A program made the position numbers and the translations under genes. The notes under the pieces are model-generated. The model worked only from the letters and a program-made list of their open reading frames with translations. It had not been told where the DNA came from and searched no databases. Below, in pieces: positions 31,717 to 35,930 of a DNA stretch of 49,644 nt; positions within the stretch are counted from its first letter, which is position 1, and each line of letters starts with the position of its first letter. Source of the stretch: Candidatus Aminicenantes bacterium (GTDB lineage: Bacteria; Acidobacteriota; Aminicenantia; UBA2199); assembly GCA_011049425.1 (NCBI GenBank), contig DSBM01000079.1:1-49644 (forward strand). The letters run 5' to 3'.

Positions 31717-32196
31717 CTATATCCACCGTGCCAGATTGATAAAGGTTTTCAACTTCAGGTCGGTTTCCCGGAGACGAGCGGACAGGATACGCGCCAGTTG
31801 CAACAGGATTCGGACCCCGCAAAGTGGATGTTCCGCAATCTCGCGCATAAATTCCTCTCGGGAGATTTCAAAAAGCATCACCGGCGTGTGCGCAATGGCC
31901 GTGGCGCTGCGGGGAAGTTCTTCCAACAGCGCCATCTCGCCAAAGACCATTCCAGCCTTGAGCAGAATCAGGGCTTCCTCGGAGTCGGCATCCGGTTTCT
32001 GAGAAATCCGAACCGTACCGGAGGCCACCACCATCATGGACGTGCCGGCGTCTCCTTCCGCGAAAATCTCTTCGTCCGCATCAAACACTTTTTCTTTAAA
32101 CAAATTACCCAAACGGGAAATGTCCGATGCATCCAGATCGGCGAAAATCTCTAGTTGCCGCAGCAACTGAATGCGGGTGGAATCGTTGACGGCCAT
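31717..32196 (-). CDS. Cyclic-nucleotide-binding domain protein
   Basis: 159 residues, essentially one CAP/CNB domain: LEIFADLDASDISRL, the GDAGTSMMVVASGTVRI hairpin, and the phosphate-binding cassette GEMALLEELPRSATAIA (about 91-107), which contains the Arg that contacts the cyclic phosphate. No helix-turn-helix or other output domain follows, unlike Crp. It may bind cAMP or c-di-GMP and act through protein contacts. Expression appears to start from an extended -10 only 7 nt before the ATG. It is divergent from the antiporter operon, which makes it a possible partner, but only by position. Confidence 0.9.
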   Translation of the reverse strand: MAVNDSTRIQLLRQLEIFADLDASDISRLGNLFKEKVFDADEEIFAEGDAGTSMMVVASGTVRISQKPDADSEEALILLKAGMVFGEMALLEELPRSATAIAHTPVMLFEISREEFMREIAEHPLCGVRILLQLARILSARLRETDLKLKTFINLARWI

Positions 32197-32203
32197 AATC
32201 GAT

Positions 32204-32212
32204 ATTATAGCA
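32204..32212 (-). promoter_or_regulatory. Extended -10 promoter with leaderless geometry for the CNB protein
   Basis: The minus strand reads TGC-TATAAT, a perfect extended -10, ending 7 nt before the ATG at 32196. No -35 match at 17 bp and no Shine-Dalgarno. Confidence 0.65.
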
Positions 32213-32254
32213 CGGTTCCAACTGCTGTACGGAAAAAGGCTCCGCTATGGTGAA

Positions 32255-32283
32255 TTGGCTTTTTTTTTGCTCTGGGCTAGAAT
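32255..32283 (+). promoter_or_regulatory. Promoter with leaderless geometry for the EIIA/PII/antiporter operon
   Basis: TTGGCT (32255-32260), 17 bp that include a T-tract, TAGAAT (32278-32283), then 6 nt to the ATG at 32290. It is divergent from the CNB promoter in the same 93-bp spacer. Confidence 0.6.
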
Positions 32284-32289
32284 AGGCGC

Positions 32290-32664
32290 ATGAGAGGATT
32301 GGTGATTGGACTACTGGTTGTGGTTGTGGTTGTCGGAGTGATCTACACGCTGCGCAACAACGATGGAGAAAGCGTGGTGGAGCAAAAGCGCAATTTGACC
32401 AACGAGGCAAAGCTCGTGCTGTTGCAAACCCGGTTGGTGCGCATTCGTGAAGCCTTGAACGCCTACTTCATTGATCACGGAGAGTATCCCGAATTGCTTG
32501 ACCTGCTGATTCCGGATTATATCCGCCATCGACAAGAGATCATGGATCCTTGGAACATGCCGTTCCGACTGGATCGCGATGACACGTTGACAATGGTACT
32601 CCACTCCGCTGGACGGGACAGCCAGTGGGAAACCAAAGACGATATCTGGAGGAAAATAGAATGA
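32290..32664 (+). CDS. Pseudopilin-like (GspG C-terminal-like) membrane-anchored protein
   Basis: 124 residues. One N-terminal membrane segment (about 4-20), a helix that continues to about residue 60, and a C-terminal part with MDPWNMPFRL...HSAGRDSQWETKDDIW, which matches the calcium-binding end of type II secretion major pseudopilins (GspG). However, it lacks the prepilin-peptidase site (G-F-x-L-x-E): the Met is followed directly by a hydrophobic run. It is therefore not processed like a normal pseudopilin. It overlaps the EIIA-like gene by ATGA and no other gsp gene is in the window, so its role with the transport genes is open. Confidence 0.72.
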   Translation: MRGLVIGLLVVVVVVGVIYTLRNNDGESVVEQKRNLTNEAKLVLLQTRLVRIREALNAYFIDHGEYPELLDLLIPDYIRHRQEIMDPWNMPFRLDRDDTLTMVLHSAGRDSQWETKDDIWRKIE

Positions 32665-33128
32665 ACCTCAATGATTATTTGGATGCCATGGATGTATTCG
32701 ATTGCGAGGAATATGCGAATACAGATCAGTTTTACGCGGCATTTGCTAGATTTTTAAAGGAAAGGAATCACATCTCGCAACCGGAAAAAATTAAAAGACT
32801 TTTCATCCGCCGTGAAAAGGTACAATCCACCGCCATCGGAAAGGGTGCGGCTGCGCCTCACATCTTTTCAGATGAATTTTCCCGCTTTTTTATATGTGTC
32901 GCCCGCATCCGCAAAGGCATGGATTTCCAGGCCCCGGATGGAAAGCCGGTTTTTTTGGTTTTTTTAATTATGAGCGACGATCGTGATGTGGGGCTGCACT
33001 TGAAATCACTGGCACATATTGCCCGCATGGTCGACAACACCGACATCGTGGAGGCAACCCGCACGGTTGCGAACGCAAAAGAGATATACCGGGTTCTGAT
33101 TCAAAAAGACGAGTTGATTCGCCCATGA
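32661..33128 (+). CDS. PTS EIIA-like (PtsN/fructose-type) domain protein
   Basis: 155 residues from the ATG at 32661 (GGAGG upstream), overlapping the previous stop. The single EIIA domain has IRREKVQSTAIGKGAAAPH with the phospho-acceptor-type His67, then the strand pair of FRAP-like text (RIRKGMDFQAPDGKPVFLVFLIMS) and the second His in HLKSLAHIARMV. All parts of an active EIIA are present. EIIA(Ntr) proteins regulate potassium transporters and kinases in other bacteria, which fits its place before two cation-antiporter-like genes. No EIIB, EIIC, HPr or EI gene is nearby, so it is likely regulatory. Confidence 0.86.
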   Translation: MNLNDYLDAMDVFDCEEYANTDQFYAAFARFLKERNHISQPEKIKRLFIRREKVQSTAIGKGAAAPHIFSDEFSRFFICVARIRKGMDFQAPDGKPVFLVFLIMSDDRDVGLHLKSLAHIARMVDNTDIVEATRTVANAKEIYRVLIQKDELIRP

Positions 33129-33466
33129 TGTTGGCGGTTTTGATTCTAAACCGCGAAGAATTGCTGGAATCGGTGTTGGAAGGATATCTGGAAATCGGCA
33201 TCACCGGTGCGACCATCGTGGATTCAGTCGGAATGGGCCACATTCTGGCTGAAGATGTGCCGGTTTTTGCCGGATTGCGCTTCATGTTCTCCGGGAACCG
33301 GCCCTACAATAAAACCGTTCTTTCCGTCATTCAGGACGAAAAGGGCCCTGCCGTAAAAAACGTACTGAAAAAAATTCTGGGTCCACTTGAGGACAACGGC
33401 AACGGTATCCTCTTTTTTATACCGGTCATTGATGCCTGGGGGCTGAAACCGGAACCTGGATCGTGA
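33125..33466 (+). CDS. PII-like signalling protein
   Basis: 113 residues with a PII ferredoxin-like pattern: strand MLAVLILN, helix REELLESVLEGYLEIGITGATIVDSVGMGHIL, a short T-loop region (AEDVPVFAGLRF), a second strand-helix unit (NKTVLSVIQDEKGPAVKNVLKKIL) and a closing ILFFIPVIDAWGL. The T-loop is much shorter than in GlnB/GlnK and lacks the uridylylated Tyr, so this is a PII-like protein (as SbtB or CutA are) rather than a nitrogen regulator. PII-like proteins often bind and gate a membrane transporter encoded beside them. It is coupled to both neighbours by 4-bp overlaps. Confidence 0.75.
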   Translation: MMLAVLILNREELLESVLEGYLEIGITGATIVDSVGMGHILAEDVPVFAGLRFMFSGNRPYNKTVLSVIQDEKGPAVKNVLKKILGPLEDNGNGILFFIPVIDAWGLKPEPGS

Positions 33467-34659
33467 GCTCCCTGACTATTTTTGCGGCTTTGCTGCTGGT
33501 GACCTTTGTCGGCTCTATTCCCTTGTTCAAAATGGATCGCAAGCGATCTCCCCTGACATATTTTCTCTTTTCGGGCACGGGCTTTCTATTGCTGGGAGTC
33601 CTTATCAGCCCCAATGGGCTGGGTTTGATATCGACAGACGTGCTGTCGCACTTGCGCCCCCTGATTCATTTCGGGTTGGGATGGATCGGATTTCTATATG
33701 GGTTTCAACTGGAATGGCGATACTTGAAACGCATCCCCCCTGGCTGGTTTCTCTCCGCGGGCACACTGTTCTTTTTCCCCGCTCTCATGCTGACCGTGAT
33801 GGGATGGTTCCTGGTAATCGCGCTGACTCAATTTTTTCACTTTTCGGTATCTGTGGCCATTTCTTTTGTGGTCATATTGGCCGTCCTGCTTTCTGAAAGT
33901 TGTACCGCGTTCGTTTTCTGGGCCATGCGCCGGTATCGGTATGCGGGCAGGCAGTACCGCATGTGCTGTTTTGTGGCGGCGATTGACAATTTTTTCCCGA
34001 TTCTGGTCGCCGCAATCCTGCCATTGTTGGTTTCCACCGGCGCCAGTGGATTAAATGCATTTTTTTCACTCGGCCTGCAAGTCGGTTTCGGAATTATCTC
34101 TGGTTATGTGGTCCACTATATGGTTAGAAAAGTGGAAGACCCCCTTGAAGTTTCCACCATCCTCTTCGGACTGGTGTTTGCGCTCAGTGGAGCCGCGTAC
34201 CTGTTGCGTTTTTCCATGCTGTTTGTCACCATGACCGCGGGCATCACCTTTACCAATTTCACCCGGAGGCATGCCTGGTTTCAAAAGCGCTTGACGCCAG
34301 TGGAAAAACCACTCTACCTGCTGTTCATGATCGCACTGCCCGTTTACGCGTTTCCCATCGGATGGGCGCCATTGGTTGTGGCGTTGCTGCTTGTTCTGGG
34401 CAAGTACTGGTCCAAACGCGTGGCGATCGCATTTACCCGCCCCTGGCATTACGCCCCCTCAAGATTCACAAAACAGGCCGCATTTCTCTTATTGCCGATG
34501 AGTGGAATCGGTCCGGCCGTGTTGCTTGAAATTCATGAACGGTTTCAAACCAAATGGATGGCCTGGGCGACAGCCGTATTTGTGTTTGCTTTGCTGATCG
34601 GAGAATGGACGGGAACGGTCGGATTTTTCAGAACGGTCGGCAAAAAAGAGAAATCATGA
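33463..34659 (+). CDS. Monovalent cation/proton antiporter-like membrane protein, first of a pair
   Basis: 398 residues from a GTG start (GTGA overlap with the PII-like stop). About 11 hydrophobic segments. It resembles the CPA2 Na+(K+)/H+ antiporter fold, with charged or polar breaks in membrane segments at LLSESCTAFVFW and VAAIDNFFPIL where CPA proteins carry functional residues. The match is weaker than for the downstream gene, and no TrkA-N or TrkA-C domain follows. It may form a complex with the second antiporter-like protein. A divergent auxiliary subunit without transport activity is the alternative. Confidence 0.65.
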   Translation: MSSLTIFAALLLVTFVGSIPLFKMDRKRSPLTYFLFSGTGFLLLGVLISPNGLGLISTDVLSHLRPLIHFGLGWIGFLYGFQLEWRYLKRIPPGWFLSAGTLFFFPALMLTVMGWFLVIALTQFFHFSVSVAISFVVILAVLLSESCTAFVFWAMRRYRYAGRQYRMCCFVAAIDNFFPILVAAILPLLVSTGASGLNAFFSLGLQVGFGIISGYVVHYMVRKVEDPLEVSTILFGLVFALSGAAYLLRFSMLFVTMTAGITFTNFTRRHAWFQKRLTPVEKPLYLLFMIALPVYAFPIGWAPLVVALLLVLGKYWSKRVAIAFTRPWHYAPSRFTKQAAFLLLPMSGIGPAVLLEIHERFQTKWMAWATAVFVFALLIGEWTGTVGFFRTVGKKEKS

Positions 34660-35930
34660 ACTTGTTGCTGTTGCTGGGACTAATCCTTTTCGGAGCGCTG
34701 ATGCCCCGGGTGGCTTTGATCGATATTTCGGCCAGTGCGGCATACGCAATGGGGCTGATGATGTTGATCGGCTATGTGACCGGGCGCCTGGCCAAGCGAC
34801 ATGGATTGCCCTCAATTACGGGATATCTCTTGGCCGGGATGTTGATCGGACCATTCGGCCTCAAGAATATCACCCAAAGTCATGTCTCGGACCTGCAGCT
34901 GATCAATGGTCTTGCTCTCTCTCTGATTGCCTTGACCGCCGGCGGCGAGATCCGCCTGGCGCGTTTGCGCCCCCATTTTCGCGTGATTTCGTGGGTGCTT
35001 TCCATGCAGACCTTGATCATGATTGTTGGCATGAGCGCCGGTTTCTGGATACTGGCCACATGGGTGTTTCCCGTGCCGTTTGCCGACACGGCCGGAGTGT
35101 TGTCGGCAGGTTTGTTGATCGGGATCGTCTCCACCGCTTCCTCTCCATCCACCACGCTTGCCGTGATCGTGGAATCGGGAAAACGTTCCGCCACAACCGA
35201 TTTGATTCTGGGCGTAGTCATGCTTAAGGATATCGTGATCCTGTTTCTGTTTTGTATTGGACTTAACATTGCCCACGCGCTGAATCCGGCGGAGTCGGAA
35301 ACCGTTACCAGCATTGGCGGCACCTTTATGCAGATATTCGGATCCGTTCTGGCCGGGCTGTTGATCGGAGGACTAATTATTGTTTGCCTGAGTCGCGTTA
35401 AAAATCACATGGTTGTGTTTATCCTGGCAGTATGTTTCTTTTCATACGAAGTTTTTGAGCCGCTTGGACTTCACCCCTTGTTGATCATGATGACCGCCGG
35501 GTTTCTGGTGGTCAACCTCAGCCGCGAAGGAGACCGCCTGATGGACCATCTTGAAGCGATTTCTCCGCCGGTGTACGTGTTGTTTTTTACCCTTGCCGGG
35601 GCGGCTTTGCGCCTGGATTTGCTCCATACCGTGGGCATTCTGGCAATGGCGCTGGTGGTGCTGCGCCTGTTTTTCAAATGGGCGGGAACATGGATTGGAA
35701 TTCAGTTTTCCGTCAAGGCGTTGCACCTTCGTCATCGGGGCTGGACGGCTTTTGTTTCCCAGGCGGGGTTGTCACTTGGATTGGCCACCATTATCACGGA
35801 ACAATTCCCGCGTTGGGGAAAATCGGTCGGCGTTTTGATACTGGCTGCCATATTCATCAACCAACTCATCGGGCCCCTGACCTTGAAATGGTTGCTGGAT
35901 AAGGAAAATCGCGCAACACCCAACGAGTGA
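34656..35930 (+). CDS. CPA2-type Na+(K+)/H+ antiporter, second of a pair
   Basis: 424 residues from the ATG at 34656, coupled by ATGA; a longer frame runs back through the previous gene. About 12 membrane segments. GYLLAGMLIGPFGL (around 48-61), STASSPSTTLAVI and the Lys-Asp of VVMLKDIVILFLF are characteristic of the CPA2/KefB-like exchanger domain. FVSQAGLSLGLATII near the end is also typical. There is no C-terminal RCK (TrkA-N) domain, so regulation may come from the EIIA-like and PII-like proteins encoded upstream. It is the last gene of the operon; a GCCGC/GCGGC hairpin without a T-run follows at about 35952-35967. Confidence 0.82.
   Translation: MNLLLLLGLILFGALMPRVALIDISASAAYAMGLMMLIGYVTGRLAKRHGLPSITGYLLAGMLIGPFGLKNITQSHVSDLQLINGLALSLIALTAGGEIRLARLRPHFRVISWVLSMQTLIMIVGMSAGFWILATWVFPVPFADTAGVLSAGLLIGIVSTASSPSTTLAVIVESGKRSATTDLILGVVMLKDIVILFLFCIGLNIAHALNPAESETVTSIGGTFMQIFGSVLAGLLIGGLIIVCLSRVKNHMVVFILAVCFFSYEVFEPLGLHPLLIMMTAGFLVVNLSREGDRLMDHLEAISPPVYVLFFTLAGAALRLDLLHTVGILAMALVVLRLFFKWAGTWIGIQFSVKALHLRHRGWTAFVSQAGLSLGLATIITEQFPRWGKSVGVLILAAIFINQLIGPLTLKWLLDKENRATPNE

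Follow-up and report, generated by a model that had tools for sequence, protein, structure and literature searches.

Known control of transporters by EIIA and PII proteins

In Escherichia coli, the unphosphorylated form of the phosphotransferase system (PTS) protein PtsN binds the K+/H+ antiporter YcgO, a CPA1 member of the cation/proton antiporters (CPA), at its C-terminal tail and inhibits it (PMC11808508). EIIA-Ntr has a role in K+ homeostasis, and a 2026 review of the nitrogen-related PTS leaves PII unmentioned (PMC13104625). PII-fold proteins act on membrane transporters in the GlnK-AmtB, SbtB-SbtA and PII-NrtBCD systems. The CPA2 antiporter KefC has no DD pair at its ion site, and the CPA antiporters whose structures have been solved form homodimers. 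The stretch of DNA analysed here (the window, 49,644 nucleotides) is contig C79 of a Candidatus Aminicenantes genome, which is metagenome-derived, 2.62 Mb in size and 96% complete. At 32290-35930 it carries a run of genes encoding an EIIA, a PII-fold protein (PIIL) and two CPA-type paralogues (CPAa and CPAb).

The locus resembles PtsN-YcgO in that an EIIA belonging to the Pfam family of PtsN would control a CPA antiporter by its phosphorylation state. However, PtsN acts on an RCK/CorC tail that YcgO itself carries, and that system has neither a PII protein nor a CPA pair. As in GlnK-AmtB, SbtB-SbtA and PII-NrtBCD, a PII-fold protein is predicted to act on a membrane transporter, but the targets in those systems are ammonium, bicarbonate and nitrate transporters rather than CPAs. 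They also involve no EIIA partner or fusion, and PIIL differs from their PII proteins in lacking the canonical ligand residues. With KefC/KefB and other CPA2 proteins, the locus shares the CPA fold, an ion site without the DD pair (CPAb and KefC) and accessory regulators, which in CPA2 are fused or separate RCK/Kef proteins. In contrast, the CPAs of the locus are without RCK and have EIIA and PIIL as their candidate regulators, and two different CPA paralogues are paired.

A literature search revealed no described system combining EIIA, a PII-like protein and an antiporter, which is weak evidence, as subscription papers lay mostly outside the search; an earlier note, made from the DNA alone, likewise knew of no system of this composition. 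EIIA is known to control K+ transport, and PII is known to control transporters, but each singly; the combination and the PIIL subfamily appear to be new. In these uncultured bacteria, whose lineage has received little study, the conserved EIIA-PIIL unit beside paired antiporters points to a form of two-input control of ion exchange that has not been described before. Our preferred reading, with a probability of about 0.6, is a monovalent cation/proton antiporter, probably heteromeric, that is regulated by two inputs: PIIL would contact the transporter, and EIIA would add the state of the PTS. The five open reading frames (ORFs) proposed in the earlier note were confirmed, and each of the four junctions is a 4-bp overlap as it had described (ATGA at 32661, ATGA at 33125, GTGA at 33463 and ATGA at 34656). 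The genes of the run are as follows.

32290..32664, + strand: T2SSG-like membrane-anchored protein, 124 aa, first in the run (PF08334, E 6.5e-5)
32661..33128, + strand: EIIA (PTS_EIIA_2), 155 aa (PF00359, E 1.2e-23; His67 is CAC at 32859-32861)
33125..33466, + strand: PIIL, PII-fold protein, 113 aa (AlphaFold2 model, Foldseek, sub-threshold PF00543)
33463..34659, + strand: CPAa, fast-evolving CPA paralogue, 398 aa (no Pfam match of its own; hhalign to CPAb, AlphaFold2/Foldseek)
34656..35930, + strand: CPAb, CPA antiporter, 424 aa (PF00999, Na_H_Exchanger, E 3.5e-30; invariant Asp192 at 35229-35231)

Conservation of the module

Contigs from across GTDB were searched with PIIL as the only query, which gave 71 loci. 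The counted set consists of 71 distinct PIIL loci, the window being added, and a duplicate contig (L024 = L053) and a locus whose PIIL is broken being left out. Most of the genomes are metagenome-assembled, and because the patterns of the wide scan were derived from Aminicenantes, distant members are under-counted. EIIA is adjacent or fused to PIIL in 56 of the 71 distinct loci, and a CPA gene lies within 3.5 kb (<=3.5 kb) in 43 of the 71. Among the 53 loci with enough flanking DNA, 44 have EIIA, 33 have CPA and 23 have two CPAs. The co-occurrence of the EIIA, PII-like and antiporter genes elsewhere, on which the earlier note had staked its proposal, is thus seen in several phyla. Beyond Aminicenantes, the association is found in bins named SAR324, Latescibacterota, Zixibacteria, WOR-3, Deltaproteobacteria (L080) and Kiritimatiellae or Verrucomicrobia.

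The gene order is EIIA-PIIL-CPAa-CPAb in the group of the window and CPAa-CPAb-EIIA-PIIL in SAR324 and other Aminicenantes, and in L044 the regulator genes are convergent with the CPA pair; these differing orders argue against merely inherited synteny. EIIA and PIIL form the tightest pair of the module. They are fused in four genomes, each time beside a CPA: three loci (L097, L098 and L099) hold a single ORF with PTS_EIIA_2 followed by P-II, and a second copy in an Aminicenantes relative (L114) is a 273-aa EIIA-PIIL ORF directly after a CPA gene, whose PIIL half was detected by the family profile and not by Pfam.

Within the class, 119 genomes were compared. PIIL occurs in 39 and the CPAa/CPAb subfamily in 35, all of which are among those 39, so that the subfamily is present in 35 of 39 genomes with PIIL versus none of the 80 without it; the PIIL matches in the remaining four are partial or weak. 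Fisher's test gave 5e-26 by genome and 7e-11 by genus, with relatedness among the units ignored. Two families have their CPA genes at a locus separate from EIIA-PIIL, and therefore adjacency alone is not the source of the correlation.

The L044 locus is mosaic. Its CPA pair has 50% and 61% identity to the SAR324-type clade versus 25% and 35% to the group of the window, whereas its EIIA and PIIL have 41% and 66% identity to the group of the window versus 26% and 46%. By these identities L044 is a foreign CPA pair joined to resident regulators, and the locus thus reunites CPAa-CPAb with EIIA-PIIL, each of which behaves as a unit of its own. Chance adjacency was rejected because the association is conserved in varied orders and phyla; simple inherited synteny was rejected on account of the rearrangements, the unlinked co-occurrence and the L044 mosaic. 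EIIA, PIIL, CPAa and CPAb are a real and widespread module.

As a separate observation, in two genomes a CPA-CPA-EIIA-PIIL cassette (L077:5527-7797 and L078:5527-7764) abuts a leftover run of cyclic nucleotide monophosphate (cNMP)-binding, pilin and EIIA genes of the window's type, and therefore these genomes hold two EIIAs. This arrangement looks like cassette replacement.

The CPAa-CPAb pair

The earlier note described two CPA-type proteins without RCK domains, and this description holds: CPAb is assigned by PF00999 and CPAa by its fold, and no Pfam match to an RCK or TrkA_N domain was obtained on either protein. CPAa has no PF00999 match in the window, and 9 of 24 CPAa relatives have one. 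Its AlphaFold2 model (pLDDT 85) has NhaP and KefC as top PDB matches in Foldseek, and the CPAa profile aligns with that of CPAb over 391 columns (hhalign, 99.9%, E 2.4e-32). Meanwhile, the CPAb profile matches NapA/NhaP.

In a maximum-likelihood tree, the first and second CPA genes fall into two clades of 27 and 27 with matching internal order, with the exceptions of L072 and L094. The pairwise distances within CPAa and CPAb correlate at 0.96, and the CPAa branches are about twice as long as those of CPAb. By this phylogeny, CPAa and CPAb are ancient paralogous clades that have been retained as an ordered pair.

The two proteins differ at the predicted ion site. CPAb carries an Asp aligned with NapA Asp157 in 27 of 27 members (Asp192 in the window) and has no DD pair. 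At the same column, nearly all CPAa proteins have Gly, Asn or Ser, and about half have Asp one residue earlier; in the window these are Asn176 and Asp175. Most members of the CPAa subclade L037-L046 have an acidic residue at neither position. A shifted ion site in CPAa is conceivable. The Arg/Lys of transmembrane helix 10 is retained in CPAa in 27 of 27.

These patterns bear on whether CPAa and CPAb work together. They could be separate homodimeric antiporters that differ in ion or pH range and are merely co-transcribed, as would accord with the homodimeric state of the structurally known CPA antiporters, with the helix 10 Arg/Lys of every CPAa and with the Asp that lies one position off in about half of them. 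We regard this as doubtful, given the strict pairing and order, the matching trees, the correlated distances, the roughly twofold faster evolution of CPAa and the loss of its aligned Asp in most members, with a subclade mostly without an acid at either position. The pattern fits an obligate pair in which CPAb would transport and CPAa would be its partner. To our knowledge this would perhaps be the first bacterial antiporter made of two different CPA paralogues, and the literature search found none.

In L043, where CPAb had seemed to be lost, a 54-residue CPAb start follows CPAa and then breaks off, which more likely reflects assembly or decay than a CPAa-only system.

The PII-fold protein

The earlier note predicted that the product of 33125-33466 folds as a PII-like protein, and the single-chain AlphaFold2 model, built from 59 relatives, agrees (mean pLDDT 88.2), with all listed PDB matches in Foldseek being PII/GlnK. 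The best is 1v3s (E 1.4e-5, TM 0.65 by query and 0.79 by target), and the matches also include GlnK and the PII that is bound in 8wm7, the NrtBCD complex. The elements of the model follow the order strand-helix-strand, two helices at the position of the T-loop, and strand-helix-strand. The T-loop, which had been called short, is not so in the model, since the region spans about 25 residues (about 36-60) and is predicted to fold as two helices.

PIIL scores against PF00543 with E 1e-4 and 23.0 bits (21.7 in the genome search), below the Pfam cut-off of 25, and is the sole PF00543 relative found in the genome search. In the PIIL alignment, S34, G36, P46, F48 and G50 are near-invariant (motifs S34-x-G36-M-G and P46-[IV]-F-A-G). 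The ligand residues of GlnK, namely Gln39, Lys58, Lys90 and Arg101, are absent from PIIL, where a profile alignment at low identity places mostly I/V, Y/H/F, I/L and G. Because these residues are missing, PIIL probably binds a ligand differently from canonical PII proteins, and the PIIL ligand is probably other than the usual ATP/2-oxoglutarate pair. PIIL is also unlikely to be the nitrogen PII of this genome, though it is the only PII homologue there. A paper on a Borrelia PII-like protein deals with something else, namely a membrane protein of the YitT family.

EIIA and the phosphorelay

The EIIA of the locus is a member of PTS EIIA (fructose/Ntr type, PF00359), as both the profile and the active-site His are present, and the earlier note was right that His67 is intact. 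Among the EIIAs aligned from PIIL loci, 53 of 54 have this residue, the exception (L030) being most likely truncated by the contig end. The EIIA of the window is not an ortholog of EIIA-Ntr (PtsN), scoring 56 bits against the cut-off of 138.7 of NCBIfam TIGR01419, and it lies outside the rpoN operon, where another EIIA occupies the run. That run, on contig C63 of the same genome, consists of rpoN, hpf, EIIA (PtsN), HPr kinase, HPr and EI.

A search of the genome for two PTS permease families, EIIC and EII-Sor, found neither, so that a role of the locus EIIA as part of a sugar transporter was rejected. With the relay genes on C63 and no EIIC or EII-Sor, a donor for His67 exists, and the EI-HPr-HPrK-PtsN relay looks regulatory in role.

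The genome has three EIIA genes (at the locus, on C63 and on C47). The third, on contig C47 (L109:1-1292), codes for a helix-turn-helix at the N-terminus and an EIIA domain at the C-terminus and stands directly before a CLC channel gene.

Other neighbourhoods of PIIL

PIIL also occurs without EIIA or CPA just before ATPase genes (L051, L052, L057, L059, L060 and L091), which are either F-type (atpI/atpB) or V-type (subunits G and I). In most of these loci PIIL is preceded by a hemL-like aminotransferase gene; it lies between that gene and an F-type ATPase in L057, L060 and L091 and a V-type ATPase in L051 and L059. The hosts are Deferrisomatales/Deltaproteobacteria/Deferribacteres and other bins. 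In L023, L056 and L073, EIIA-PIIL is preceded by genes for a CLC channel that carries CBS and TrkA_C domains, for a CheX-like protein and for a zinc-ribbon protein, and a CPA pair is present at another locus of the same or related genomes. In L049:4061-6342, a CNNM/CorC-type gene (CNNM, CBS and CorC_HlyC domains) is directly followed by EIIA-PIIL.

Proposed mechanism

In the two-input antiporter proposed above, CPAb would be the transporting subunit and CPAa an obligate paralogous partner with a partly degenerate ion site, the two probably forming a CPAa-CPAb heterodimer. By likeness to other PII proteins, PIIL is expected to be trimeric; it would use its helical T-loop region to dock on the antiporter from the cytoplasmic side and would gate it in response to a small ligand. 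PIIL could substitute for a C-terminal tail of the YcgO type, which CPAa and CPAb do not have. The EI-HPr relay would phosphorylate His67 of EIIA, and EIIA would convey the phosphoenolpyruvate/phosphorylation state to PIIL or to the antiporter, so that ion exchange would be tuned to the energy supply. From this arrangement we infer control of ion exchange by both phosphorylation and a ligand. PIIL is the likelier direct contact of the CPA because it is kept with CPA even without EIIA, and since the fusions join EIIA to PIIL, EIIA probably acts on PIIL, or both act on one face of the transporter. K+ is somewhat favoured as the transported ion because of the PtsN-YcgO precedent and the role of EIIA-Ntr in K+ homeostasis, and Na+ is the less likely choice. 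With the fusions and the module swap at hand, the proposed physical link can be put to a direct test, and if true, this would be the first function for a PII subfamily that scores below the Pfam cut-off.

Several points weigh against the two-input antiporter. CPA and PIIL occur without EIIA in L090, L095, L096 and L100, and some EIIA-PIIL pairs have a CLC channel or a CNNM protein as their neighbour, or no transporter at all, so that the link within the module is not exclusive. Sampling was dense for one organism group only, and the Fisher values overstate independence because the genomes within the class are related. In addition, for about half of the CPAa members, a shift of the alignment by a single residue decides whether the Asp counts as lost.

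The first of these points bears on the role of EIIA. PIIL alone might gate the antiporter, with EIIA merely co-encoded and serving another role, e.g., in transcription, as the EIIA-less CPA-PIIL pairs of Caloranaerobacter, Lutispora and a Clostridiaceae bin would allow. This is improbable, however, in view of the conserved His67 and of EIIA-PIIL being the tightest pair, fused in four genomes.

The other neighbourhoods raise the question of whether the antiporter is the proper target. EIIA-PIIL could be a general sensor pair with many targets, of which the antiporter is merely the commonest, while the same PIIL family controls CLC, CNNM and F- or V-type ATPases elsewhere. Its occurrence beside CLC (L023 and L056) and CNNM/CorC (L049), and that of PIIL by F-type and V-type ATPase genes in the five loci with hemL-like neighbours, speak for this view; yet the class-wide co-occurrence of PIIL and CPA is almost without exception, even where unlinked, and the CLC-linked genomes still carry a CPA pair elsewhere, which makes the view unlikely. 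Tentatively, PIIL might represent an undescribed PII subfamily that gates ion-moving machines generally, CPA pairs first and then CLC, CNNM and rotary ATPases, with EIIA-PIIL as a new two-input signalling unit through which uncultured bacteria would set their ion gradients according to both the phosphate-relay state and a new ligand.

Flanking genes

No known RNA element was found at the locus with Rfam. The earlier note had included the pseudopilin-like gene in the unit. Its T2SSG match stands, and the product has no GFTLIE-type prepilin peptidase motif; as the gene occurs in about a dozen loci, it was rejected as part of the conserved core. Divergent to it lies the following gene.

31717..32196, - strand: stand-alone cNMP-binding protein, 159 aa, single domain (PF00027, E 4.6e-20)

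The pair of the divergent cNMP-binding gene and the T2SSG-like gene (31717-32664) is retained in several Aminicenantes. The cNMP-binding gene adjoins the module or a module remnant in L031, L034, L040, L077, L078 and L084; it is kept in some Aminicenantes and lies outside the core of the module.

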